A DNA stretch of 64,000 bases. It comes from a virus. This document shows positions 10,075 through 55,603 of the stretch, piece by piece. The stretch is from positions 52,602 through 116,601 of the IMG/VR virus record IMGVR_UViG_3300020198_000002; one strand, given 5' to 3'. The notes beneath the pieces are model-generated. The model was not told the DNA's origin. It ran no database searches and worked only from the letters and a program-made list of their open reading frames with translations. How positions within the stretch are numbered: the first letter of the stretch is position 1; each line of letters begins with the position of its first letter. A program made the translations under genes and the position numbers.

Positions 10075-10493
10075 ATACTGATTTTGATGAGATAAACAAA
10101 TCTTTAGATATTGAATCTACTTCAGTGTCTAAAGATATTGTGAGATCTAAAAAATCACCCATTACAAAACAAGACAAATCAGAACCAGAAGCTGATTATG
10201 AATATACAAGGGCTCAACTTTACTCGTTAATCGAAAAGGGACAGGAAGCAATCGATGGAATTTTGGAAGTTTCTCAAGCAAGTGATTCTCCACGAGCATA
10301 TGAAGTTGCAGGTCAACTAATTAAAAGTGTTGCAGACACTGCAGATAAACTAATTGATCTACAACAAAAAATGAAAGATTTAAGTAAAGATGATTCTAAA
10401 GGACCAGCAAATATAACAAATAATGCTCTATTCATTGGATCTACTCACGATTTGCAAAAATTTTTAAAGGCTCAAAACAGTGAAAAGAAATAA
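10071..10493 (+). CDS. gp16: gp16 small terminase subunit
   Basis: A 140-residue homologue of T4 gp16 (164 residues). The conserved core is visible: DYEYTRAQLYSLIEKGQEAI, SPRAYEVAGQLIKSVAD, and the C-terminal NNALFIGSTHDLQKFLK. It forms a ring that regulates gp17 during packaging of concatemeric DNA. The N-terminal 45 residues are charged and low in complexity, with no recognisable helix-turn-helix. It overlaps gp15 by 4 nt and a small gene at its 3 prime end by 14 nt. Confidence 0.9.
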   Translation: MNTDFDEINKSLDIESTSVSKDIVRSKKSPITKQDKSEPEADYEYTRAQLYSLIEKGQEAIDGILEVSQASDSPRAYEVAGQLIKSVADTADKLIDLQQKMKDLSKDDSKGPANITNNALFIGSTHDLQKFLKAQNSEKK

Positions 10494-10647
10494 TGTGAAT
10501 CCCAAAAAAGAATGGGAAAAGACTTTGGGATCAATGTTAAATAATAAAAATACTTTTGTTCCCCAAAAGTTAACAGCAAAACAACTCCAAAAAGATAGTC
10601 CATTGCGTATGATAATGTATTATCTCAATAGTAAATTGAAAAAATAA
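10480..10647 (+). CDS. Small basic protein between gp16 and gp17
   Basis: A 55-codon gene that fills the 156 nt gap between gp16 and gp17. The GTG at 10480 overlaps the gp16 3 prime end and has an AAAGG ribosome site (10466-10470) at good spacing; a second in-frame GTG at 10495 is possible. The product is basic, with KKEWEKTLGSML and a C-terminal SPLRMIMYYLNSKLKK helix, and it ends 2 nt before the gp17 start. I do not recognise the family. Its tight packing between the two terminase genes suggests a packaging accessory role, but that is only context. Confidence 0.55.
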   Translation: MKRNNVNPKKEWEKTLGSMLNNKNTFVPQKLTAKQLQKDSPLRMIMYYLNSKLKK

Positions 10648-17274: not shown

Positions 17275-17556
17275 ATGGAAGACACTGATTTGATTGACAT
17301 GATCGTAAGTGATGGTTCACCATCCGAGATTCATGCAAAAATTAAAGAATTAATTAATCAAAAAGTCGTACAGAACGTTGATGATGTAACTCCATATGTT
17401 GCAGCATCTATGTTTGGAGCAGAAGCTCCAGTGGATTCCGAGGAAGAATCCGAGGAAGAATCCGAGGAAGAATCTGAAGAAGGATCCGAACAAGAATATG
17501 ATAATGAAGAGAGTGAAGAAGATTCTGAGGAAAATTCTGAAGAAGAATCCGAATAA
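17275..17556 (+). CDS. gp67: Acidic prohead core protein, gp67-like
   Basis: A 93-residue protein lying between portal and protease genes, the place of T4 gene 67. Residues 1-50 form a helical N-terminus (MEDTDLIDMIVSD, IKELINQKVVQNVDD), and the last 40 residues are almost only Glu and Ser. T4 gp67 is likewise short, with a strongly acidic tail, and is a core protein degraded by gp21. Identification rests on position and composition, as such sequences cannot be aligned reliably. The tail is encoded by a 12 bp tandem repeat. It ends 22 nt before gp21. Confidence 0.7.
   Translation: MEDTDLIDMIVSDGSPSEIHAKIKELINQKVVQNVDDVTPYVAASMFGAEAPVDSEEESEEESEEESEEGSEQEYDNEESEEDSEENSEEESE
17437..17472 (+). 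repeat. Tandem 12 bp repeat in the gp67-like gene
   Basis: Three perfect in-tandem copies of TCCGAGGAAGAA, each encoding Ser-Glu-Glu-Glu, followed by degenerate copies. Being a multiple of three, copy changes would lengthen or shorten the acidic tail without a frameshift. Confidence 0.85.
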
Positions 17557-17578
17557 ACTTAACCCCCCTGCATGTAAA

Positions 17579-18289
17579 ATGAAACTCATTACCGAAGAAA
17601 TAGAATCAGCCAAATTTATTATTGAAGAAAATGAAGGAAAAAAATCGATGTTTATCGAAGGCATTTTTCTTCAGGGAAATATGAAAAATCGTAATAATCG
17701 TATGTATCCAGTAGAAGTTCTTGAAAAAGAAGTCATACGTTACTGCGAATCTTTTGTTGCAAAAGGCAGGGCACTAGGAGAACTTGGTCATCCAGATGGT
17801 CCAACAGTAAATCTGGATCGTGTTTCCCATAAAATTGTTTCCCTTCACAAAGAAGGTTGCAATTTTATTGGTAAAGCAAAACTTCTTGATACTCCAATGG
17901 GCAACATTGCAAAAAATTTAATTGATGAGGGGGTAACTCTTGGTGTTTCTTCTAGGGGTATTGGTAGTTTAAGAGAAACAAGCGAAGGATATAAAGTAGT
18001 GGGCGAAGATTTTATGCTGGCCACTGCTGCTGATATTGTCGCTGATCCTTCGGCACCTGATGCATTTGTTAACGGAATTATGGAGGGGGTTGAATGGATT
18101 TGGGAAAGCGGGGTCCTAAAAGCCAAACAACCAGAGATCCAAATCCCCGTTGCAGTTATAGAAAAAACTGAATTAAAAGTTGAAGAAAAGATTGAAAAAA
18201 CTAAAAAAACTATAAATAAGTTAGTCGAACAAAAGAGACTTGATGAAATGAAACTGGAGTTATTCCAGAACTTTTTATCAAATCTCTAA
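17579..18289 (+). CDS. gp21: gp21 prohead maturation protease
   Basis: A 236-residue serine protease (T4 gp21 212). GRALGELGHPD holds the catalytic histidine and LGVSSRGIG the nucleophilic serine of the herpesvirus-protease-like fold used by T4-type prohead proteases. I take the ATG at 17579 (MKLITEEIESAKFII); the frame is open farther upstream but that part would read through the gp67-like gene. It cleaves scaffold, core and capsid proteins at (L/I)xE sites, then itself. The charged C-terminal helix (EEKIEKTKKTINKLVEQKRLD) would tie it to the core. Confidence 0.92.
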   Translation: MKLITEEIESAKFIIEENEGKKSMFIEGIFLQGNMKNRNNRMYPVEVLEKEVIRYCESFVAKGRALGELGHPDGPTVNLDRVSHKIVSLHKEGCNFIGKAKLLDTPMGNIAKNLIDEGVTLGVSSRGIGSLRETSEGYKVVGEDFMLATAADIVADPSAPDAFVNGIMEGVEWIWESGVLKAKQPEIQIPVAVIEKTELKVEEKIEKTKKTINKLVEQKRLDEMKLELFQNFLSNL

Positions 18290-18346: not shown

Positions 18347-19429
18347 ATGTCTCGTGGAGATTTACAAGAAATGGAAGTAGGCACAAAGCAATCCAAAACC
18401 GCTGTAAACAGTGGTGCCGCAGGTGGAGATCCCATGCCAAAGGCTCCAAATTATGTCCCCGATGCAGGGGCTATTGAAGATTTGGGAGGACCTTCACCAG
18501 AAAATTCCAAGCCCGATGATGATTCTAACAAGCTTAAGACCCCTGAGAAAACCATTCAACATGTAAAGAATGTGGTAAACAAGGGTGCTAAGCCTGCAGA
18601 ACCAATGCCAGTTGCAAACAAAGGTGCCATGTCCTACGAAGAAAACGAATCTGAGGTTGAAGAAACAATTTCAGAAGATGAGACAACAGAACTAGATATC
18701 GATTCTGCAATCAACGAAGATGTTGACGCTCTACTAAGCGGCGAAGAGCTTTCCGAAGACTTCAGAAACAAAGCAAAAATTGTTTTCGAAGCAGCTCTTA
18801 ACGCAAAAGTAAATCAAGTTGAAAAAGAACTTGAAGAACAGTATGCCGTTGCTCTTTCAGAAGAAATCGATTCGATCAAAATCGAATTGACTGAAAGAAC
18901 AGATTCATACTTAGAGTACGTCGCTCAGGAATGGTTAGAAGAGAATGCACTTGCTGTTGAGCATGGCATTAAAACTCAGATGACCGAATCGTTCCTAGTG
19001 GGACTAAAAGAGCTTTTTGAAGCACATTATGTATCACTCCCTGAAGATAGATATGATGTACTTGAGAGTATGGTAGACAAACTTGATGAGATGGAAACAA
19101 AACTCAACGAGCAAATCGAAAGAAACATTGCTCTAAATAACAGACTGTCAGAGACGGTTGCTGAAACCATCATGAATAATGTTGCGGAAGGATTAGCTGT
19201 TTCTCAGAAAGAGAAACTCTTCTCCTTGGCAGAGAGTGTTGAGTTTGAAAGTGAAGAAGGCTATCGTGAGAAACTGGAAACTTTAAAGGAAGCATATTTT
19301 CCAACTAAGTTTAGTTCTCCGAAGGAGACGGTTGCACAAGAACTAAGAGAAGAATCTGACTACACTGAAGTTACATCTTCAATGTCAGCTTATCTCCAAG
19401 CTCTTTCAATCCAAGCTCCAAGGCAGTGA
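18347..19429 (+). CDS. gp22: gp22 prohead scaffold (core) protein
   Basis: A 360-residue scaffold protein located as in T4 between gp21 and gp23. The first 100 residues are low-complexity (Gly, Pro, Asn, Lys), followed by an acidic stretch and a long predicted alpha-helical coiled-coil region (about residues 135-300: NKAKIVFEAALNAKVNQVEKELEEQ, split; YDVLESMVDKLDEMETKLNEQIE). T4 gp22 is 269 residues, helical and acidic. It fills the prohead and is destroyed by gp21 on maturation. The start is the ATG after a GGAGAG ribosome site. Confidence 0.88.
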   Translation: MSRGDLQEMEVGTKQSKTAVNSGAAGGDPMPKAPNYVPDAGAIEDLGGPSPENSKPDDDSNKLKTPEKTIQHVKNVVNKGAKPAEPMPVANKGAMSYEENESEVEETISEDETTELDIDSAINEDVDALLSGEELSEDFRNKAKIVFEAALNAKVNQVEKELEEQYAVALSEEIDSIKIELTERTDSYLEYVAQEWLEENALAVEHGIKTQMTESFLVGLKELFEAHYVSLPEDRYDVLESMVDKLDEMETKLNEQIERNIALNNRLSETVAETIMNNVAEGLAVSQKEKLFSLAESVEFESEEGYREKLETLKEAYFPTKFSSPKETVAQELREESDYTEVTSSMSAYLQALSIQAPRQ

Positions 19430-19468: not shown

Positions 19469-20860
19469 ATGCAACAACAGTTTAACTATAACCAACTCAC
19501 CGAAAAGTGGGCACCTCTTCTAGACTATAATGGTCTAGATCCAATCAAAGATTTACACCGCCGTAATGTTACTGCAGCGCTTCTTGAGAATCAGGAGCAA
19601 ATGCTCCGTGAGAACGCTGAGTTCCTCGGCGAAGCATCACCAACCGTTTCCGCTGGTACTGGTGGATTCAGTGGTAGCTCCACAGCATCAGGACCTGTTG
19701 CTGGTTTCGATCCCGTTCTGATCTCACTGATCAGACGTGCAATGCCTAACCTGGTTGCTTATGACCTGGCAGGTGTTCAACCAATGAATGGTCCTACTGG
19801 ACTCATCTTCGCAATGCGTTCACGCTACACCAACCAAAGCGGAACAGAAGCACTCTTCAACGAGCCAGATTCGGCATTCGCTGGTCAGAACTCTGGAAGA
19901 AACCTCACCGCAGGATTCGTTGACGGTGCTGCTGGTTTTGGTACGACTGCACAGTCAGGCACCAACCCATCAGTCCTCAACCCAGTTGGTTCCGCAACAA
20001 CCTCTGCCTACAACGTTGGCGAAGGTATGACCACTGGTAACGCTGAGGCACTCGGAGATGGTGCGGGTAACCACTTTGCAGAAATGGCATTCTCAATCGA
20101 GAAAGTCACTGTTACTGCAAAGTCACGCGCACTGAAAGCTGAGTATTCACTTGAGCTCGCTCAAGACCTCAAGGCAATCCATGGTCTGAATGCTGAGGCT
20201 GAACTCGCAAATATCCTCTCAACTGAGATTCTTGCCGAGATCAACCGCGAAGTCATCAGAACCATCTACAAGATTGCTGAGCAAGGTGCAACCCTCAACA
20301 CCGCAACCGCTGGTGTATTTGACCTCGACGTTGACTCCAACGGTCGTTGGTCGGTTGAGAAGTTCAAAGGTCTGCTCTTCCAGATGGAAAGAGATGCAAA
20401 CCAGATTGCACAAAGAACTCGTAGAGGGAAGGGCAACGTTATTCTCTGCTCTGCAGACGTTGCTTCCGCTCTAACCATGGCTGGTCTCCTCGACTACACC
20501 CCTGCACTCAACGCTAACCTCAACGTTGATGACACTGGCAACACCTTTGCTGGTACTCTTGCTGGTAAGTTCAAAGTTTACATCGATCCATTCGCTGCAA
20601 ACAATGACGCCAACCAGTACTACGTTGTTGGTTATAAGGGTTCTAATCCTTATGATGCAGGTCTATTCTACTGCCCATACGTTCCTCTCCAGATGGTTCG
20701 TGCAGTTGGTCAGGACACCTTCCAGCCAAAAATTGGATTCAAGACTCGTTATGGAATTGTTGCCAACCCATTTGCAGAAGGCACCGATCAAGGTCTTGGT
20801 AGACTCCTCGCTAACGCAAACCGTTACTACAGAAGAGTCAAAGTTACCAACCTCATGTGA
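19469..20860 (+). CDS. gp23: gp23 major capsid protein
   Basis: A 463-residue major capsid protein (T4 gp23 521), recognised from FDPVLISLIRRAMPNLVAYDLAGVQPMNGPTGLIFAMRSRY-type sequence (given here only in outline) and the C-terminal NANRYYRRVKVTNLM. The N-terminal delta region ends in EFLGE-ASP, a fitting gp21 site that would cut after Glu55, like Glu65 in T4. Codon use differs visibly from the rest of the window, with many C-ending codons, as expected for the most highly expressed gene. A strong terminator follows 20 nt after the stop. Confidence 0.97.
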   Translation: MQQQFNYNQLTEKWAPLLDYNGLDPIKDLHRRNVTAALLENQEQMLRENAEFLGEASPTVSAGTGGFSGSSTASGPVAGFDPVLISLIRRAMPNLVAYDLAGVQPMNGPTGLIFAMRSRYTNQSGTEALFNEPDSAFAGQNSGRNLTAGFVDGAAGFGTTAQSGTNPSVLNPVGSATTSAYNVGEGMTTGNAEALGDGAGNHFAEMAFSIEKVTVTAKSRALKAEYSLELAQDLKAIHGLNAEAELANILSTEILAEINREVIRTIYKIAEQGATLNTATAGVFDLDVDSNGRWSVEKFKGLLFQMERDANQIAQRTRRGKGNVILCSADVASALTMAGLLDYTPALNANLNVDDTGNTFAGTLAGKFKVYIDPFAANNDANQYYVVGYKGSNPYDAGLFYCPYVPLQMVRAVGQDTFQPKIGFKTRYGIVANPFAEGTDQGLGRLLANANRYYRRVKVTNLM

Positions 20861-48022: not shown

Positions 48023-48030
48023 CATAAATA
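48023..48030 (+). promoter_or_regulatory. Late promoter (CATAAATA)
   Basis: CATAAATA 26 bp before the gene at 48057, the same spacing as at gp13. Confidence 0.75.
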
Positions 48031-48056
48031 TTTTTCGGACAGATATTTTTACTTAC

Positions 48057-49541
48057 ATGGCTAATATAGGATCTGCAGCCGAAGGTGCATTTGCAATTGC
48101 CCTAACACTGAATATCATTGAAAATGATCGACTTCCTTCTACTAGTAGGTTGAAGTGTAATCTGCCTAATATTAACTACTGGATGAAACAAATTCCATTA
48201 TCTAGTTTTGAGAATGGTGGAACTTGGGTGCAAACCTTATATAATGGTAAAGCGACTATGAGAAAAGCAGGTTATACTTCAGTAGATGAAGTTAATGTAG
48301 TGCAGGCCCCAAAAAATAGTAATCAGATACCAGTTGATTTTTTAAAGGTAACTCTTGAGGTTGGACTAAAACCAGAAGAAGTTCGAGGCTTTTATGGGCG
48401 CGATCCAATTGATTTATATAAACTTAATGATATTATAAGTCAGATGATTGCAGATTCTGGTAGATATAAGACCTATATAAATGCTTTTAAAACCAAGTAT
48501 CTTACAAATGATAGGAAGGAATTAATTAGCGTTTATGTGAAAACTATTGGTAAAGAGGGGGAACAGTCTGGTGGTGCAATCAAAGGCGATGTTCAACTTG
48601 AAGTAACTGTTCAAGCTTATGATCCAATTACTCTTAAACCGAAGAGTACTCCCAAGAAAAATAGATTCCCGACAATGTATTTTTCCTTAAAGGCTTCAGC
48701 TACTCCTCCAAAAACTATTAGTAATGAAAGTCCAATTAAGGCCCTAAAAACCTTATCTACAGCCTTTGGAGTCGATCCTTTTACATCACCACAATATAAT
48801 GTACCTATAAAAAGCCTTGGGGCATTTCAACAGTTCGTTACTACTTCAAATAAAAAGAGACAGACTTGGATGACGGATCTTTATGGGTCTGGTCTTTTGG
48901 TGAAACAGGGCAGAAAAAATTTCTTAAGAACAAGTTCCAGTGAAGTTAATATCTCAAAGCTTAAGATTTTTGATTTACTCGATGATCAGACCTATCCAGA
49001 ATTGTGGAGAGTTAAGTCGGTTGAAGATAGATTTTGGAAAAGTTTTGTTGTAAAAAGATATGTGGAATCTGTTTTTGGTTTAATTCCTTCTGGTGAGCTG
49101 AGTCCAGAAATGTCAAACAATGTTTGGTCCGCACTATTTAAAGCTGGATTTGGTATAGATCCTTATGCAAGTAGAACATTTTTACTTGCCTATGGTAATA
49201 GGACATTTCAAAGTTCTAGTTTAGAATATCTTAGAGCAGTGAAAGATTCTACAAATTCTCAGATCTATGCTACAAATAGTGGAAGTGCTGTAGAGTTTTA
49301 TATTGGAAATAAAAAAATATCTAAAGCAAAATTATATCATATTCGATATAAGAATAGGAGTGTATATGATGGTGACATTAGCGAAAACGCAACTTTTGAT
49401 TTGCAGAATCTTTTAAAATTAGAATTAAAAATCATGCCAGAGTGTGGTGATGCATTTAAAGAAAAGCCAAGTTGGAGGCCTGGAGATAAACTAGATTTTA
49501 ATCCAGTTACTGGAACCCTTTCTATATCAAAAGAAACATAA
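48057..49541 (+). CDS. Probable virion structural protein
   Basis: A 494-residue protein of unknown family. MANIGSAAEGAFAIALTLNII starts with a small-residue-rich helix; the rest mixes strands and helices (FPTMYFSLKASATPP, WRVKSVEDRFWKSFVVKRYVESVFG, PSWRPGDKLDFNPVTGTLSISKE). It has a late promoter, which points to a virion or lysis function, and stands in front of a block of internal-head candidates. No enzyme motif, transmembrane segment or coiled coil could be seen. It is conserved in T4-like cyanophages as far as I recognise the sequence. Confidence 0.6.
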   Translation: MANIGSAAEGAFAIALTLNIIENDRLPSTSRLKCNLPNINYWMKQIPLSSFENGGTWVQTLYNGKATMRKAGYTSVDEVNVVQAPKNSNQIPVDFLKVTLEVGLKPEEVRGFYGRDPIDLYKLNDIISQMIADSGRYKTYINAFKTKYLTNDRKELISVYVKTIGKEGEQSGGAIKGDVQLEVTVQAYDPITLKPKSTPKKNRFPTMYFSLKASATPPKTISNESPIKALKTLSTAFGVDPFTSPQYNVPIKSLGAFQQFVTTSNKKRQTWMTDLYGSGLLVKQGRKNFLRTSSSEVNISKLKIFDLLDDQTYPELWRVKSVEDRFWKSFVVKRYVESVFGLIPSGELSPEMSNNVWSALFKAGFGIDPYASRTFLLAYGNRTFQSSSLEYLRAVKDSTNSQIYATNSGSAVEFYIGNKKISKAKLYHIRYKNRSVYDGDISENATFDLQNLLKLELKIMPECGDAFKEKPSWRPGDKLDFNPVTGTLSISKET

Positions 49542-49544
49542 ATA
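49537..49544 (+). promoter_or_regulatory. Late promoter (CATAAATA)
   Basis: CATAAATA overlapping the stop of the previous gene and 19 bp before the GTG start at 49564. Confidence 0.72.
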
Positions 49545-49563
49545 TTTAAAAAAGTAGACCATA

Positions 49564-50862
49564 GTGAAAACTTTTTCCCAATTTATATTTGAAGCGATAG
49601 AGAGTCCTGCAGCTAAACAGGCTCATAGATTGGGACTGGTAAGTTCTAAGGGTGCTTGGTATGACCGTTCTGGCAAATATGTTGCAAAAACAGTAAATGG
49701 AGAATTGAAATTTTCTTCTAGTCCTTCAAAAAAAGAAGATGAGAAGAAGACTCCTTCTCAAAACAAATTACAAGAACCTGCAAAGAAGTTAAGAAAGAAA
49801 ACGGCAGATATATCCGCACCACCAAAACCAAATAAACCACAAGAACAAGAAATAAAAAAAGAGACGGAAAAGGATACTGTAAAAAAATCCACGTCTTCTA
49901 CAAATACAGAACTCCAAAAATCAGAAACATCGGAACAATCTACCCTTTCTGGGATAGTCATTACATTTGGCAGATTTAATCCACCAACAGTTGGCCACGA
50001 AAAACTTTTAAAATCGGCATCTACAGAGGCTTCTAGAAGAAAATATGATTTGAAAATTTATCCCTCTAGATCTAAGGATCAAAAGAAGAATCCTTTAGAA
50101 CCTGCAACTAAAATTAAATACATGAAGATGATGTTTCCTGATTACGCCGATCAGATTATAGATGATCCTGAATCAAAAACAATTTTCACCGTGTTGATTT
50201 CGGCTTCTGAACTGGGATACAGAAACGTTGTAATTGTGGTTGGGCAAGATAGACTTTCTGAATTTCAAAGTCTCGCTCATAAGTATGATGGTGATTTATA
50301 TGAGTTTGATACTATCGAAGTTATTTCTGCTGGAGCTCGAGATGCAGATGCCGAGGGTGTAGAAGGGATGTCTGCATCTAAAATGAGAATTGCCGCAATG
50401 GAAAATGATTTCCAAACTTTCTCAAAAGGAATACCTACACTTGGTAATATGGAAAAGAAAAATCTTTTCAATGTTCTTCGCAAGTCTATGGGAGCAAAAG
50501 AAATTAAAGAAGCCAATGTTTGGGAAATTGCACCAAAACTAGATTTAAATGGGTTGAGACTTGCATATTTGAAAGAACAAGTCTTTAATGTCGGCGAGTT
50601 GGTAGAAAATATTAACACTGGAGAAATTGGTAGAATTACTCGTAGAGGCACAAACTATGTTATTTGTATGACTTCTGAAGGTGCGATGTTTAAAGCTTGG
50701 TTAAAAGATTTGGTTGAAGCTTATGAGATTGGTACAGATGAGTATAGAAAGTATGTTCAAGCACAATCTGCAGGACAACCAGTAAAAAAGTTCGGACCCA
50801 AAATTAGTATTTTGCCTACTATTAAGCCACTTAAAGCTAATGATCCTGTAAAGTATAAATAA
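49564..50862 (+). CDS. Nucleotidyltransferase with capsid-targeting N-terminus
   Basis: A 432-residue protein from a GTG start. MKTFSQFIFEA closely resembles the T4 capsid-targeting sequence of internal proteins (MKTYQEFIAEA), with a gp21-type site after E10. A short conserved element (LGLVSSKGAWYDRSGKYVAKT) and a charged linker to about residue 130 precede a cytidylyltransferase-fold domain: GRFNPPTVGH (HxGH at 142-145), VVGQDR and GMSASKMR (268-275) equal to the ISSTxxR motif of NMN/pantetheine adenylyltransferases. A small C-terminal beta domain (VGELVENINTGEIGRI) follows. It probably enters the head and could be injected to modify host metabolites or proteins, as T4 Alt does. Confidence 0.72.
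   Translation: MKTFSQFIFEAIESPAAKQAHRLGLVSSKGAWYDRSGKYVAKTVNGELKFSSSPSKKEDEKKTPSQNKLQEPAKKLRKKTADISAPPKPNKPQEQEIKKETEKDTVKKSTSSTNTELQKSETSEQSTLSGIVITFGRFNPPTVGHEKLLKSASTEASRRKYDLKIYPSRSKDQKKNPLEPATKIKYMKMMFPDYADQIIDDPESKTIFTVLISASELGYRNVVIVVGQDRLSEFQSLAHKYDGDLYEFDTIEVISAGARDADAEGVEGMSASKMRIAAMENDFQTFSKGIPTLGNMEKKNLFNVLRKSMGAKEIKEANVWEIAPKLDLNGLRLAYLKEQVFNVGELVENINTGEIGRITRRGTNYVICMTSEGAMFKAWLKDLVEAYEIGTDEYRKYVQAQSAGQPVKKFGPKISILPTIKPLKANDPVKYK
50854..50861 (+). promoter_or_regulatory. Late promoter (TATAAATA)
   Basis: Perfect TATAAATA ending at the stop codon of the nucleotidyltransferase, 29 bp before ATG 50891. Confidence 0.78.
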
Positions 50863-50890
50863 TATACGAGAAGTTTTGGATTTGTCTACT

Positions 50891-51895
50891 ATGTCGGATA
50901 ATTTTAATTTATCTAAAATTTATGAGTCAATTTATTCTTCGCATAAATCTGAACATTTATCTGAAGAATCAGTAGAACAACCGTCAGTTGATCTTACTTT
51001 GGATGAAGATGAGTGGGAACTCTTGGGCGAACTCTATGACTCCTTAATGTCAAGTAGAAAATTTTCCGAGCCAGAAGTAATTTCTATTTGCGAAAAAACA
51101 AAGTGTGGTATGGAACGCAATAAGAAAAAGAAAAAGCCAGCCCGTTGGTGGGATGATGACGGTGATGGAATCGGTTATGAGAAAGGAGAGGTTTCTAAGG
51201 AAGAAACTGAACTTGGTGAAAATAGAGCTGCAATGCGTAACCCTGAGGAATATGAAAGAAGCCCAGAAGCAAGAGCAGGTCGTGCAGCAAGAGGTGGAAT
51301 AAATAATCCACGCACTGGTATCAATTCACCTGCTTTTGCTGAGTTTATGAGGCAGCAAATGGGTGGTAGTAAACCAAAACCAAAACCAAAATCAGATCTC
51401 AAAAACTCTTACGAACCAGAAGTTGAGTCGGTTGATGAAGGTAAAAAGACTTTCCCATTTAAGAAAGTTGAAAGTCAAATGAAAAAAGCAAGAAAGAGTT
51501 CTGTGTATGGACAGGACACTGGAAATGAACCTGCTCCTAACGTGAGTGATGCTACAAAGAAAGCGACTACACGTTTCACTAAGATGCATAACGCTCTTTC
51601 AAAAGCAACGAGAGAAAAGCAGGAAACAGATAAAGCAAAAAGACCTCCAACTTTTTACAAGGACACTCATCCAGCGAGTGCTCCCAAGATGAAGAAGTCA
51701 AGTCTTAATGCTGGATATACTCCAGAGGAACTTGAAATTATTAGTGAAGTTGCACCAATGATTGCATCTGCTTTGGGTGGTGTTGCTAGAACAGTTGCAA
51801 CAAACGCAGTAAAGAGTGCCGCAACAAATGCTGCTGGAAAGGGGGTTAATAAAATCAAATCACTTTTAGGTGGTAATCAACAACAGGAAGTTTAA
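50891..51895 (+). CDS. Probable internal head protein with DxDxDG motif
   Basis: A 334-residue protein. I take ATG 50891 (MSDNFNLSKIYESIYSS) and not the TTG farther upstream. I-Y-E at 10-12 is a possible gp21 cleavage site, similar in position to those of both neighbours. Domains seen: an acidic helix, then PARWWDDDGDGIGYEKGEV with a calcium-loop-like DxDxDG, a Gly/Arg/Pro-rich basic part, and an Ala-rich C-terminal helix (VAPMIASALGGVARTVATNAVKSAATNAAGKG, in outline) that could insert in or contact membranes. Late promoter. Function unknown. Confidence 0.58.
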   Translation: MSDNFNLSKIYESIYSSHKSEHLSEESVEQPSVDLTLDEDEWELLGELYDSLMSSRKFSEPEVISICEKTKCGMERNKKKKKPARWWDDDGDGIGYEKGEVSKEETELGENRAAMRNPEEYERSPEARAGRAARGGINNPRTGINSPAFAEFMRQQMGGSKPKPKPKSDLKNSYEPEVESVDEGKKTFPFKKVESQMKKARKSSVYGQDTGNEPAPNVSDATKKATTRFTKMHNALSKATREKQETDKAKRPPTFYKDTHPASAPKMKKSSLNAGYTPEELEIISEVAPMIASALGGVARTVATNAVKSAATNAAGKGVNKIKSLLGGNQQQEV

Positions 51896-51896
51896 A

Positions 51897-53429
51897 ATGA
51901 AAAACTTCCAAGATTTGTTTGAGGTTTCCAATTCTGCGAGATTAATGGCGGCTGCTGCAACTAGATCAGCAGCTGCAGCTAAACAATCTAAAAGAATGCA
52001 GGTTGCTAAATCTAGCGTAGCTGGAAGTCAACAACTTAAAAAAATTCAAAACATTAATAATCAATCTGCAACTGATGCGAACACCACTCCTATATCTAAG
52101 GGTGGCGCATTGGCTCTTCGTACTCCTGCCAACAAACAGAGAGATCCAAAAGTTGCAGCTGCATTGAAAAATGTTCCTGTAAATAAAAATGCTCCTGGAA
52201 CAGTTGCACAAAAACAATTCCAACAAAATAAAGATTTTGGCAGCACTACTCAAACTTCTGCAGCTGCAGCTGCAAAAAATGATACGTTGGCTGCAAAAGC
52301 CGATAGAAAAGCTTCCTTACAAAGACAAGCATCTCAACTAGAAAGAAAAAAACAAGAAGGCGAAGAACGGAAAAATAGAATACAGCAAGGTATTGATATG
52401 ATGGCCCCCAAAAAACGAGTTGGGGAAAGAGAGAGTGATGCTGCAGCTCTAGGAAAGATGATGAGTAACATTGGTTCTGGATTGAGAGGAGCAGCTAAAG
52501 CTGTTGGTGCTGTTACTGGATTAGATAAAAAAATAGAAACTGGTAGACAGAAATTCCTAAACAAATTATCTGGATCAAAGAGACCTGGACTTGCTACTGG
52601 GGCTCAGTCTTTTGGAGTTAAGACTCAATCCAAAAAACCAGCAGATCCATGGGCAGCTTCTAAAAAACCAGCAGATCCATGGAAAAATTCTTTAAGTAAT
52701 CCAAAACCAGGCGCTCCTGGAAATCCTGGAATCCGATCTTCCAATGCAAGTTTTGTTGCAAAAAATTCTGCAAGCAAATCAGTTGGATTTGGTGGAGTCC
52801 CTGGTAGATCTGGAGCCTCTAGACCTGCATTGAGGTTAAAAAAACCAAACTCTACTTTCAAAGCAACTGGGGGGTCTGCTTCTGTTAGCCCCAGTAGATT
52901 AGGTGCGGCCGCCCGAAAAGATCCAGCACTAAAAAGTAAATTAATTCAACAAAGAATGGGCGGTATGAAAGAAGAATTTTCACATTGGAGAGAGGAATTT
53001 ATTTTTGAAGTTGGCAAATCAATCCCAACAGAAAAGAAAAAAATTATAGAACCAATGTCTGGAGAAAATAAAATAATTATAAATCCAACTCCAGAGGAAG
53101 TGAAAGAATCTATTGTATCAATAGAAGACGCATATGGTAGAGTCTTTGCTGAAGTTGAAGATTTAATTACTTCTAATTCTGTTTATGAGTCTCCCGCTTG
53201 GACAAAAAAGTCGGGTAAGAATCCAAAAGGTGGACTCAACGAGAAGGGAAGGAAATCTTATGAGCGTGAGAATCCTGGAAGCGACCTTAAAGCACCTTCA
53301 AAGAAAGTTGGAAATCCTCGTCGTAAGTCCTTCTGTGCAAGGATGAGGGGTATGCGTAAGAGACAAAAACCATCTAACAATACTGGTGAAGATCGTCTCT
53401 CAAAATCACTTAGAGCGTGGAACTGCTGA
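51897..53429 (+). CDS. Basic, Ala/Lys-rich probable internal head protein with DUF6321-like C-terminus
   Basis: A 510-residue, strongly basic protein. MKNFQDLFEVSNSARL is again capsid-targeting-like with an LFE site after E9; HWREEFIFEVGK (363-374) holds a second possible gp21 site (E371). Residues 10-360 are low-complexity (Ala, Lys, Gln, Ser), including a direct repeat KKPADPW. The C-terminal 80 residues (AWTKKSGKNPKGGLNEKGRKSYE, NPRRKSFCARMRGM, EDRLSKSLRAWNC) match the DUF6321 type domain spread among tailed phages. Probably packaged with DNA. It starts 1 nt after the previous gene. Confidence 0.62.
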   Translation: MKNFQDLFEVSNSARLMAAAATRSAAAAKQSKRMQVAKSSVAGSQQLKKIQNINNQSATDANTTPISKGGALALRTPANKQRDPKVAAALKNVPVNKNAPGTVAQKQFQQNKDFGSTTQTSAAAAAKNDTLAAKADRKASLQRQASQLERKKQEGEERKNRIQQGIDMMAPKKRVGERESDAAALGKMMSNIGSGLRGAAKAVGAVTGLDKKIETGRQKFLNKLSGSKRPGLATGAQSFGVKTQSKKPADPWAASKKPADPWKNSLSNPKPGAPGNPGIRSSNASFVAKNSASKSVGFGGVPGRSGASRPALRLKKPNSTFKATGGSASVSPSRLGAAARKDPALKSKLIQQRMGGMKEEFSHWREEFIFEVGKSIPTEKKKIIEPMSGENKIIINPTPEEVKESIVSIEDAYGRVFAEVEDLITSNSVYESPAWTKKSGKNPKGGLNEKGRKSYERENPGSDLKAPSKKVGNPRRKSFCARMRGMRKRQKPSNNTGEDRLSKSLRAWNC

Positions 53430-53465
53430 TATAAAAATTATTAGGAAGTGAACATATTTCTAAAA

Positions 53466-53525
53466 TTGATACAAAAATTTACAAATATATTGTCTAAATA
53501 GATTATAATTGTATCAAGTTGATAC
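53466..53525 (+). promoter_or_regulatory. TATAAT promoter with operator-like inverted repeat
   Basis: TATAAT at 53504-53509 upstream of the membrane gene, with the inverted repeat GTATCA-AGT-TGATAC at 53511-53525 covering the expected start, and a third half-site TTGATAC at 53466. No standard -35 at 17 bp. Could be an operator or a short leader hairpin. Confidence 0.48.
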
Positions 53526-53531
53526 TTGCTT

Positions 53532-53762
53532 ATGTATACTGTATACGTATTAGCCATTTTTCTAGCAATATTAATTGCTTATGCGGGTATTGATGAGACG
53601 ATGAAATTACTTGCATATCTAGATTTGCAATTACGTTATGCATATGTAAAAATTCAGATGAAGTGGATGGGTTGGAATCTTAAGAGACAACTAGTAAAAG
53701 AAACAACCGAATTCCAAAAGTTCTACGAAAAATTCAATAATGAACACAAAAACTTGTTCTAA
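53532..53762 (+). CDS. Small membrane protein
   Basis: A 76-residue protein with one N-terminal hydrophobic helix (YTVYVLAIFLAILIAYAGI, residues 2-20) and a basic, amphipathic cytoplasmic rest (RYAYVKIQMKWMGWNLKRQLVK). ATG 53532 is preferred over the upstream TTG. Orientation would be N-out or anchored with the basic part inside. It overlaps the next gene by 23 nt. No family function known; a sigma70-type -10 rather than a late motif lies upstream, so it may be early. Confidence 0.58.
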   Translation: MYTVYVLAIFLAILIAYAGIDETMKLLAYLDLQLRYAYVKIQMKWMGWNLKRQLVKETTEFQKFYEKFNNEHKNLF

Positions 53763-53955
53763 GTGTGGCGCTACATGGATTGGAGGCCAACACTACTGGA
53801 CGGGGACAAATAAACCTGGTAACGAGTTAGATCTTGCTGGTTTGGTTTGCAATAAACTTGGTGACGATTCATGTATAAATCCCCATCGTGGTTCCGAAGG
53901 AGGCGTTACTTGGGAGAGTAGACTAAAAGAGTTGGGGGGGACCAACCATAAATAA
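53740..53955 (+). CDS. Small zinc-ribbon-like protein
   Basis: A 71-residue protein starting MNTKTCSKCGATWIGGQHYW. The CxxC pair, followed by a cysteine in GLVCNK and another in DDSCINPH, suggests a four-cysteine zinc site. The pattern of WIGGQHYWTGT-K-G-DLAGLVCN recurs in cyanophages. It overlaps the membrane protein gene and ends at the late promoter of the next gene. Possible binding to nucleic acid or protein; unproven. Confidence 0.58.
   Translation: MNTKTCSKCGATWIGGQHYWTGTNKPGNELDLAGLVCNKLGDDSCINPHRGSEGGVTWESRLKELGGTNHK
53947..53954 (+). promoter_or_regulatory. Late promoter (CATAAATA)
   Basis: CATAAATA overlapping the stop of the zinc-ribbon gene, 18 bp before ATG 53973; AAGGT in between is the ribosome site. 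Confidence 0.72.
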
Positions 53956-53972
53956 TCAAAAAGGTAAATAAA

Positions 53973-54242
53973 ATGAGAATAAAAATTCTTGGTGCTGAAC
54001 AGGCACTCACAACTGTAACTGGAACGGCTACAAGTTTTACTTCAGCAACAGTCGTGCGTCTTTTTAATTCTTCGACATCTGCAGATCACTTAGTTACTGT
54101 GGTCGAAACTCAGGGGGGAACTGTTGTTGGTTCTTTTACTCTTGCAAGAGGTCAATCTGAATTTTTAGAAAAGTTACCAGCACATTGTGTGTTTGCAGCA
54201 AATGCTGCTGTTTTGGGAGCAAAAGTAGCATTTACTGATTAG
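53973..54242 (+). CDS. Small beta-rich probable structural protein
   Basis: An 89-residue protein: MRIKILGAEQALTTVTGTATSFTSATVVRLFNSSTSADHLVTVV in outline, followed by GTVVGSFTLARGQSEFLEKLPAHCVFA. The pattern is a small beta sandwich rich in Thr, Val and Ala, without charged clusters, and it resembles capsid-decorating or tail-associated small proteins of cyanophages. It has its own late promoter, in agreement with a virion role. No domain name recognised. Confidence 0.55.
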   Translation: MRIKILGAEQALTTVTGTATSFTSATVVRLFNSSTSADHLVTVVETQGGTVVGSFTLARGQSEFLEKLPAHCVFAANAAVLGAKVAFTD

Positions 54243-54245
54243 TAG

Positions 54246-54253
54246 AATAAATA
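54246..54253 (+). promoter_or_regulatory. Late promoter (AATAAATA)
   Basis: AATAAATA 22 bp upstream of the 38-codon basic gene at 54276, just after the previous stop. Confidence 0.65.
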
Positions 54254-54275
54254 CTTTGTTACTCACTGCACTATA

Positions 54276-54392
54276 ATGGCCAAGTCCCCTAATAAAGGTA
54301 AAAAAGGTTCTTCTGGAGGTCAAAAGAACTCCAAACAAAACCAAGGAAATGCCACTGCTAACAAAGCAAAGAATGGCGGCAAGAAAAAGTGA
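54276..54392 (+). CDS. Very small lysine-rich late protein (38 aa)
   Basis: A 38-residue gene with its own late promoter. The product has 11 lysines, 7 glycines and no acidic residue (starts MAKSPNKGKKGSSGG, ends NGGKKK), so it is fully disordered and polycationic. It could bind DNA in the head or nucleic acid in the cell. It overlaps the next gene by 4 nt (GTGA). The presence of promoter, start and coupling argue for it being real despite its size. Confidence 0.55.
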   Translation: MAKSPNKGKKGSSGGQKNSKQNQGNATANKAKNGGKKK

Positions 54393-54601
54393 TCCCTCTA
54401 ATCTTGGCATCAGTTTTTACAGCTACCCCCATGGGTCCAGGACAAGTTCCTCACTTCATGAGAACGTGTGACAGAATACGTATTCATGATCCTAAGACAG
54501 AAACTAATTGGATTCTTTGTATCAATGGGGTTTATCAATTTCCTAAAAATGGCCGACCACAAGATAGAAGTCTACCACAGCACAAACAACAATTGATTTA
54601 A
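54389..54601 (+). CDS. Small hypothetical protein, possible exported
   Basis: A 70-residue protein with a GTG start overlapping the preceding stop. The first 20 residues (IPLILASVFTATPMGPG) are hydrophobic and may act as a signal or anchor. RTCDRIRIHDPKTETNWILCINGVYQFP has a cysteine pair that could form a disulfide outside the cytoplasm. It ends in polar residues. No family recognised; it is one of a series of very small genes between two late promoters. Confidence 0.48.
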   Translation: MIPLILASVFTATPMGPGQVPHFMRTCDRIRIHDPKTETNWILCINGVYQFPKNGRPQDRSLPQHKQQLI

Positions 54602-54604
54602 TTT

Positions 54605-54760
54605 ATGGATTACATTGCATTCTTGATCATTGGATTGGTGGAAATCGGTCCTAATGTATGTAAAATTGATTACATGCGTCATGTTGATGTGCAATCTTTT
54701 ACGATGCCGTGTGATCATATTCAAAAAATTACAAAAATTCCAGTAGATAAATCGATATGA
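54605..54760 (+). CDS. Small hypothetical protein (51 aa)
   Basis: A 51-residue reading frame, 3 nt after the previous gene and overlapping the nuclease ATG by 4 nt (ATGA). It starts with a hydrophobic MDYIAFLIIGLVEIG segment, followed by cysteines at PNVCKIDY and MPCDHIQK. The architecture (hydrophobic start, two cysteines) resembles the gene before it, suggesting a related pair. No known family. Confidence 0.48.
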   Translation: MDYIAFLIIGLVEIGPNVCKIDYMRHVDVQSFTMPCDHIQKITKIPVDKSI

Positions 54761-55185
54761 AAGACCCATATATTTACAGAATTCGTTCAATCGCAAAGGT
54801 AGTAGATGGCGACACTATTGATGCTAACATTGATCTTGGTTTTGATATCTCTCTCAGTAAGCGAATTCGCCTTGCGGGCATTGACACGCCTGAGAGTAGA
54901 ACAAAAGATGAATATGAAAAGAAACTCGGACTCGAATCGAAAGAGTGGTTGAAGAAGCATCTAGAGGGTGCTAAAGATATTATCGTCAAGACTGAACTTC
55001 CAGATAGCACAGAGAAGTATGGTCGCATCATCGGGCACTTATATATTGGAGACGCAGAAGTATCAGCGGTCAATAGAAAGAAGTCTATTAATAACCAGAT
55101 GATTGACGAAGGATACGCCTGGGAATATGATGGCGGCACAAAGCAAAAAGATTTTGCAAAACTTCTAAGTAAAAGAAAAGGATAA
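54757..55185 (+). CDS. Staphylococcal-nuclease-like thermonuclease
   Basis: A 142-residue SNase domain. KVVDGDTIDANIDLGF, KRIRLAGIDTPESR with the catalytic Arg and Glu, and EKYGRIIGHLY with the second catalytic Arg are all present, so it should be active and Ca-dependent. No signal peptide; thus it may act inside the cell, for instance on host DNA or RNA, or be a virion-associated nuclease. The stop overlaps a late promoter for the following gene. Other cyanophages carry related genes. Confidence 0.82.
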   Translation: MKDPYIYRIRSIAKVVDGDTIDANIDLGFDISLSKRIRLAGIDTPESRTKDEYEKKLGLESKEWLKKHLEGAKDIIVKTELPDSTEKYGRIIGHLYIGDAEVSAVNRKKSINNQMIDEGYAWEYDGGTKQKDFAKLLSKRKG

Positions 55186-55188
55186 ATA
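55181..55188 (+). promoter_or_regulatory. Late promoter (GATAAATA)
   Basis: GATAAATA overlapping the nuclease stop codon, 25 bp before ATG 55214, with AGAGGT as ribosome site. Confidence 0.7.
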
Positions 55189-55213
55189 CGGCTGCCTATA
55201 CATAGAGGTTACC

Positions 55214-55387
55214 ATGGGAGCAGTTGTCGCTGTAGTAAAACCACTTCTTATGCAACTTGCTACAAGTCCTGCAGTTAAGAATCTAGTTATTTCTCTTCTT
55301 GAGAAGTATGTAAAGTCTACTGATAATAGTGTTGATGATGTACTTTTTGCAACTGTTAAAGATGCACTCTTTAAAGCACAAGCATGA
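55214..55387 (+). CDS. Small hydrophobic/helical late protein (57 aa)
   Basis: A 57-residue protein beginning MGAVVAVVKPLLMQLATSP and ending in an acidic-basic helix (DDVLFATVKDALFKAQA). The N-terminal half is hydrophobic and amphipathic, without a clear transmembrane length. It is driven by a late promoter and coupled by a 4 nt overlap to a membrane protein gene. Together these could be a lysis or membrane pair, but there is no direct sequence proof. Confidence 0.52.
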   Translation: MGAVVAVVKPLLMQLATSPAVKNLVISLLEKYVKSTDNSVDDVLFATVKDALFKAQA

Positions 55388-55548
55388 TTACTTGTTTAGT
55401 GACCAATTGGGGAGTAACCATCGTTCTTGGTTTTCTCCTTTCTCTTTCGGAGTGGTTAGCAAAAACAAAAAGAACGAAGGCGAATGGTATTATAGACTTT
55501 ATAACATTATTTTTAAGAACAGTGCTTCGCAAAGACTCTAACAAATAG
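55384..55548 (+). CDS. Small late membrane protein (54 aa)
   Basis: A 54-residue protein with a hydrophobic segment (VTIVLGFLLSLSEWLA, about 11-26) followed by a basic region (KTKRTKANG) and a second weakly hydrophobic helix (IIDFITLFLRTVL). It lies in a late transcript ending at the terminator that overlaps its stop. Size and topology are holin-like, but many phage small membrane proteins look alike, so no name is given. Confidence 0.5.
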   Translation: MITCLVTNWGVTIVLGFLLSLSEWLAKTKRTKANGIIDFITLFLRTVLRKDSNK

Positions 55549-55562
55549 GGTCTTATTTTTTT
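55532..55562 (+). terminator. Rho-independent terminator
   Basis: Stem AAGACTC/GGGTCTT (one G-T pair) with a nine-base loop, then A and seven T. It overlaps the end of the small membrane gene and abuts the next late promoter. Confidence 0.8.
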
Positions 55563-55569
55563 ATAAATA
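55562..55569 (+). promoter_or_regulatory. Late promoter (TATAAATA)
   Basis: Perfect TATAAATA immediately downstream of the terminator, 34 bp before the gene at 55604. Confidence 0.8.
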
Positions 55570-55603
55570 AAATTTAGATAAGAACATAATTTGGAGAAAA
55601 CCG

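Follow-up and report, generated by a model that had tools for sequence, protein, structure and literature searches.

The open reading frame at 49,564-50,862 of the window (the whole 64,000-nucleotide stretch analysed here, part of a 116.6 kb virus record of 116,601 bases) encodes a 432-residue nucleotidyltransferase that opens with a close counterpart of the capsid targeting sequence of the T4 internal proteins. It is very likely that this tag packages the protein into the phage head and, by analogy with T4, the packaged protein is probably clipped after E10 and injected. In the mechanism we propose, the gene would be expressed late from its own NATAAATA promoter; the first ten residues would act as a T4-type capsid targeting sequence, with F4 and F7 docking the protein into the scaffold core of the prohead; the gp21 protease would cut after I8-x-E10, leaving an enzyme that starts at A11 inside the DNA-filled head; this enzyme would enter the next host with the DNA and hence be present before any phage gene is expressed; and, as an adenylyltransferase of the NMN/NaMN type, it may maintain or restore NAD at the onset of infection. 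As a whole, we favor this account of a late, tag-packaged, clipped and injected NMN/NaMN-type adenylyltransferase with reasonable confidence. A tag known from T4 and an enzyme already known from cyanophage virions are thereby linked in a mechanism that can be tested: several groups have found the enzyme in cyanophage particles and could not tell cargo from contamination, a question that the tag makes open to experiment.

The closest DNA and protein relatives of the window are Synechococcus and Prochlorococcus myoviruses, and its source is a T4-like cyanophage encoding a portal, a prohead protease, a scaffold protein and a major capsid protein. The reading frame, which an earlier note made from the bare sequence had singled out as a nucleotidyltransferase gene, is real, and AlphaFold2 run on an alignment of 67 sequences divides its product as follows:

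49564-50862, + strand: whole open reading frame, GTG start, 432 aa, in the order tag, small domain, disordered linker, nucleotidyltransferase, SH3/KOW-like module
49564-49596, + strand: capsid-targeting-like tag MKTFSQFIFE|A, codons 1-11, with a predicted gp21 cut after E10 and a predicted helix at residues 4-12
49606-49716, + strand: small folded module, residues 15-51, consensus AKxLGLxGDGHGGWYDxxGxFVAKTxxGKLKF, AF2 pLDDT about 93
49717-49950, + strand: low-complexity linker, residues 52-129, predicted disordered
49951-50499, + strand: HxGH-superfamily nucleotidyltransferase domain, residues 130-312, with NPPTVGH and GMSASKMR motifs
50575-50721, + strand: SH3/KOW-like beta module, residues 338-386, encoded by its own gene in the S-PM2 group

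Homology to the T4-GC190 family covers the tag, the enzyme domain and the C-terminal module. The homologue in Sf-FS3 is 59.6% identical over 99% of the protein (also given as 62%), and 253 phage records match our protein with at least 80% coverage.

The tag lies at the extreme N-terminus (residues 1-11), where a targeting sequence of about 10 residues is expected. The protein begins MKTFSQFIFEA, whereas ipII and ipIII in the T4 record begin MKTYQEFIAEA; 7 of 11 residues are identical and Y4 is replaced by F, as in T4 ipI, which begins MKTFKEF. The targeting sequence of IPII and IPIII goes back to Mullaney and Black 1996, as cited in PMC9026906, which also gives the genetic mapping in T4: residues 4 and 7 serve targeting, and residues 8 and 10 serve processing. 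F4 and F7 are aromatic/hydrophobic, and I8 and E10 form the (I/L)8-x-E10 pattern of a gp21 site. The likeness to T4 and the predicted gp21 site after E10 that the earlier note had proposed both stand. The similarity to IPII/IPIII extends to position, length, the residues M1 K2 (F/Y)4 F7 (I/L)8 E10 A11, the presence of gp21 in the genome and late expression; the difference is that the tag here sits on a 432-residue enzyme, and theirs on small internal proteins. In the whole 116,601-base record the DNA pattern for the tag has a single forward match, the tag itself, with 0 for a reversed-pattern control, and shuffled versions of the window gave 0 matches.

The head genes required by such a tag are present in the same record:

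17579-18289, + strand: gp21-type prohead protease (PHROG 207, E=1e-82)
18347-19429, + strand: gp22-type scaffold protein (PHROG 237, E=1e-106)
19469-20860, + strand: gp23-type major capsid protein (PHROG 138)

The gp21 start was set by comparison with gp21 of S-SCSM1 (MKLIREEIE), the listed frame at 17396-18289 being over-extended. The phage thus has both the protease and the gp22 scaffold, which forms the core that receives tagged proteins in T4. A candidate propeptide site in gp23, EFLGE55|ASPT, resembles the predicted tag cut FIFE|A: candidate gp23 sites read FLGE|A in the window and LLTE|A, ILTE|A or FLAE|A in related phages.

Late expression is indicated by a promoter, also noticed in the earlier note, immediately before the gene:

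49537-49544, + strand: late promoter CATAAATA (cyanophage form NATAAATA), 27 nt upstream of the start codon

The cyanophage form is a published late promoter (PMC2984593). The + strand of the window has 21 copies of it and the - strand has one; 12 of the 21 lie 10-90 nt before a start, against 1.7 expected. Capsid and tail genes carry it, as does a late island at 48-56 kb that lies between replication genes. This island (48023-55600) has promoters at 48023, 49537, 50854, 53947 and 55562 and holds probable virion genes; the syntenic genes 89-93, 95 and 97 of S-SCSM1 encode virion proteins. Directly upstream of the enzyme gene lies a 494-aa late frame (48057-49541) with no Pfam or PHROG family; its identification as DUF6267, based solely on a weak 66-residue BLAST match to Syn9 gp183, was rejected.

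The enzyme is an HxGH-superfamily nucleotidyltransferase. PF01467 scores barely over its cut-off (21.6 vs 21 bits), the match to PHROG 395 ‘cytidyltransferase’ has E=3e-95, and residues 130-312 are modeled at an AF2 pLDDT of about 95. The earlier note had read a complete HxGH/ISSTxxR-type domain: the domain holds up, while its motifs are actually TxGH (NPPTVGH) and SASKMR, with HxGH in place of TxGH only in some relatives. In a Foldseek comparison with PDB the top matches (E about 1e-4, probability 1.0) are NaMN and NMN adenylyltransferases; FAD synthetase and phosphopantetheine adenylyltransferase match as well. NCBIfam profiles for NadR NMNAT, NadD and PPAT match 32/67, 23/67 and 4/67 family members, respectively, all far below their cut-offs: enzyme profile matches lie at 20-31 bits against cut-offs above 100 (TIGR00482, 20.8 vs 112; the best NadR match, in a relative, 31 vs 341). 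A profile search of PDB gave nothing significant, with NMN adenylyltransferases among its five matches. A likeness to polynucleotide phosphorylase in a single-sequence PDB search (E 0.1 or worse) was judged to be chance. The suggestion of adenylyl or cytidylyl transfer, or a NAD-related reaction, is therefore right as far as it goes, in that the nearest profiles and folds, though the profile matches are all far below cut-offs, are those of NMN/NaMN adenylyltransferases; this sequence and fold evidence is weak.

The protein shares with NadD/NadR/NadM the HxGH-superfamily fold, an NPPTxGH-type motif 1 and an SxSxxR-type motif 2 (TxGH/HxGH and SxSxxR). Some tagged relatives additionally have the order tag, nucleotidyltransferase, P-loop kinase, which is that of NadR, with a kinase part resembling AAA_33/zeta kinases. 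Its sequence scores fall far under the curated family cut-offs and, because of this, we do not file it as a member of those families. We regard NMN or NaMN as its substrate only tentatively, as an assignment slightly likelier to be wrong than right. With T4 Alt it would share arrival with the DNA and activity at time zero; it differs in having an unrelated nucleotidyltransferase fold, rather than that of an ADP-ribosyltransferase, and in adenylyl or cytidylyl transfer as its chemistry in place of ADP-ribosylation. Cyanomyoviruses lack alt, modA and modB (PMC2984593).

The main rival to NMN/NaMN adenylylation is that the enzyme is packaged and injected by the tag, and acts in RNA or nucleotide end-processing, such as repair of host or phage RNA broken by defence nucleases or RNA-end modification, and not in NAD synthesis. 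We consider this rather unlikely. In its favor, a protein with ligase-like motifs, DUF6267 (PF19782, T4-GC71), is encoded directly upstream of the enzyme in many phages (e.g., L112:2761-3999, L056:4695-5942, Syn9 gp183 and S-SM1 gene 189) and begins with a tag or tag-like leader in other T4-like phages. Its invariant KWDG, EG and K-x-V motifs resemble those of covalent nucleotidyltransferases/ligases. Moreover, the enzyme domain is fused to a P-loop kinase, PAP2 or Pol-beta-type nucleotidyltransferase in other phages, and no NAPRTase (NadV) turned up in the 116.6 kb record, itself partial. The profile and fold matches discussed above, however, favor NMN/NaMN adenylyltransferases; DUF6267, though modeled at an AF2 pLDDT of 90, has no significant fold match in PDB (best ligase E above 1), and a search of the 116.6 kb record did not find it, which does not prove its absence, since the control genomes of that search lacked the family too.

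The fusions just mentioned place the enzyme domain within multidomain proteins of 737-1181 aa in six relatives, carrying P-loop kinase (AAA_33/zeta), PAP2 or Pol-beta nucleotidyltransferase domains, like polyvalent head-packaged effectors. With such effectors and the NAD/ADP-ribose network of myoviruses (PMC9503650), our enzyme would share packaging, NAD/ADP-ribose chemistry at the start of infection and multidomain relatives; the available portion of that survey reports packaged ARTs, Macro, NADAR and Nudix proteins, and does not state packaging of NAD-synthesis enzymes.

Across 67 diverse members of the family, M1, F4 and E10 of the tag are invariant, K2, F7 and A11 are conserved in at least 97% (F7 in 97%), position 8 is mostly L or I, and positions 3, 5, 6 and 9 vary. 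Thus, the conserved positions are those which T4 genetics ties to targeting (4, 7) and gp21 processing (8, 10), and the tag carries 3.25 bits of information per site against 2.94 for the enzyme domain (67 relatives). The tag also survives the loss of its neighbor: S-CREM2 (MKNFSSFLTEA) and S-SZBM1 (MRFRQFIIEA) retain it although they have lost about the next 100 residues, which comprise the small module and most of the linker. The tag is present in 141/148 retrieved members, a biased figure in that the retrieval relied either on ranking by likeness to the query or on the tag. In a tag-blind retrieval by catalytic motif, 105 members with complete starts comprised 31 with a strict tag, 47 with a loose one and 27 with none (5 more were truncated); as only 31/105 are strict, the strict tag is typical of a cyanophage-like branch and not of every relative. 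Stand-alone enzymes without the tag occur in S-H9-2, S-CAM3 and ACG-2014e and in the jumbo phages 121Q, CBB and Callisto. In S-PM2 the homologue is untagged because the C-terminal half of a DUF6267 protein forms its N-terminus.

It is improbable that the protein is a packaged structural or scaffold component whose nucleotidyltransferase fold is a non-catalytic relic. Such a reading would fit the modular build with two small beta modules, the late-cluster neighbors, which are virion proteins of unknown role, and three contigs that encode the tag, the GWYD module and the KOW module and lack the enzyme domain. These contigs make the enzyme look as if it had been inserted into a modular carrier. 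Against a relic, G144, H145, S270, S272 and R275 are invariant over the deeply diverged members (67 in the alignment), and the jumbo phages have the enzyme standing alone. In S-PM2, S-CAM3, ACG-2014e and S-H9-2 the enzyme and the SH3/KOW module are on separate genes. The module gene of this group begins MKxFxxL/I, tag-like at positions 4 and 7 and without the usual cut site; it is often annotated, apparently wrongly, as a ribonucleotide reductase alpha subunit or NrdB.

Homologues of the enzyme have been detected in purified virions of four cyanophages. Mass spectrometry found the cyanophage core gene product T4-GC190 in S-SM1 (Sullivan et al. 2010; PMC3037559) and ORF91 in S-SCSM1 (PMC9602691), and virions contained ORF154 of S-CREM2 with 3 unique peptides (PMC10665884) and S-SZBM1_140 with 2 peptides (PMC9146016). 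These proteins are 37-50% identical to ours and all four carry the tag; the untagged S-PM2 homologue is stated to have gone undetected in S-PM2 virions (PMC3037559). This contrast fits a role of the tag weakly, because the S-PM2 proteome was shallow and also missed gp21 and others. Together with the T4-mapped residues and the persistence of the tag when its neighbor is lost, the four tagged virion homologues give good support to the proposal of the earlier note that the enzyme is packed in the head.

The enzyme might instead be an abundant late protein that contaminates CsCl virion preparations, its N-terminal helix serving another purpose. The S-SCSM1 (PMC9602691) and S-CREM2 (PMC10665884) papers raise such contamination as possible, and the case against packaging further includes that the published detections rest on few peptides where counted, that the proteomics come from other phages, and that the tagged small proteins S-SCSM1 ORF30 and S-SZBM1_191, as well as S-SZBM1_192, are not among the virion proteins reported. 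Independent detection in four phages, a tag whose residues fall on the positions mapped in T4 for targeting and cleavage, and the occurrence of this tag on unrelated proteins together make contamination a quite remote explanation. In scans set against the virion lists, 2/2 tagged genes were detected in S-CREM2 (one tag being loose), 1/2 in S-SCSM1 (both whole genomes) and 1/3 in S-SZBM1 (68-130 kb), numbers too small for statistics. ORF13 of S-CREM2 (10310-10546; 78 aa, start MKDLHSFLTEQ) was seen in virions by one peptide and sits between the genes of a Cas9-like nuclease (ORF12) and a kinase (ORF14) detected in virions. S-SCSM1 ORF30, S-SZBM1_191 and Sf-FS3 169 form a conserved, tagged family of 105-106 aa that starts M(K/R)(T/S)FK(Q/S)F(M/L)SESVNISGDFNG.

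Virion association of homologues was known before, and two of the virion proteomics papers propose that the enzyme is carried into the cell and affects NAD; a packaging signal as the explanation was not found in the literature searched. The cyanophage virion ‘NMNAT’/‘cytidylyltransferase’ (T4-GC190) of these papers is of the same family, with the same motifs and tag and a similar genomic neighborhood. In the portions available the papers do not mention the tag on it or give any packaging signal, and treat its virion presence as possibly incidental. On capsid targeting sequences we found papers for T4, P1 and SPN3US and none for cyanophages, in a search that had most subscription journals outside its reach.

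We also searched IMG/VR with a DNA pattern for M K x F x x F h x E A, independently of gene family. Among the matches listed, 118/124 lie at the start of a frame of at least 60 aa and are preceded by only a short open stretch, against 5/42 start-like stretches for a scrambled tag with the same specified bases, which matched 42 stretches in the whole collection (Fisher p=3e-25). A chance origin of the likeness to the T4 tag, conceivable in that an 11-residue match with seven identities is short, is refuted by this comparison, with the family conservation and the empty shuffled windows also against it, and can be set aside as having next to no probability. Within 120 nt upstream, NATAAATA precedes 50/117 tagged genes among the matches listed and 218/870 other frames of the same contigs; before the tagged genes listed it mostly lies 23-32 nt upstream.

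Only 58/118 of the tagged frames among the matches listed belong to the enzyme family, a few of them without the enzyme domain. The other frames code for unrelated proteins, among them DUF6267, DUF5661, a GNAT acetyltransferase, a DPBB lytic transglycosylase and one that matches a 5'-3' deoxyribonucleotidase family. These findings suggest that marine T4-like phages use the tag on enzymes more widely. It is conceivable, though we lean somewhat against it, that in these phages the capsid targeting sequence serves as a general cargo label that can be moved from protein to protein, by which unrelated proteins (this nucleotidyltransferase, the ligase-like DUF6267, P-loop kinase fusions, GNAT, lytic transglycosylase and nucleotidase-like proteins) would be loaded, cut by gp21 and injected as a set that starts the infection, replacing what T4 delivers with Alt and its small internal proteins. 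With such a tag, injected proteins could be predicted from sequence in abundant ocean viruses that lack Alt and whose first actions on the host are little understood.

Two further loci have tagged or tag-like frames. On one IMG/VR contig (L071:3736-4529) two adjoining tagged genes encode a GNAT acetyltransferase and a 138-aa protein, which has no Pfam match, starts YYHGTP and has, by eye, the look of an ADP-ribosyltransferase. In the window, a 511-aa frame at 51894-53429 starts MMKNFQDLFEV, which is tag-like and one residue short; it has an internal EEFIFEV that resembles the tag core and a C-terminal DUF6321 domain at 76.8 bits.
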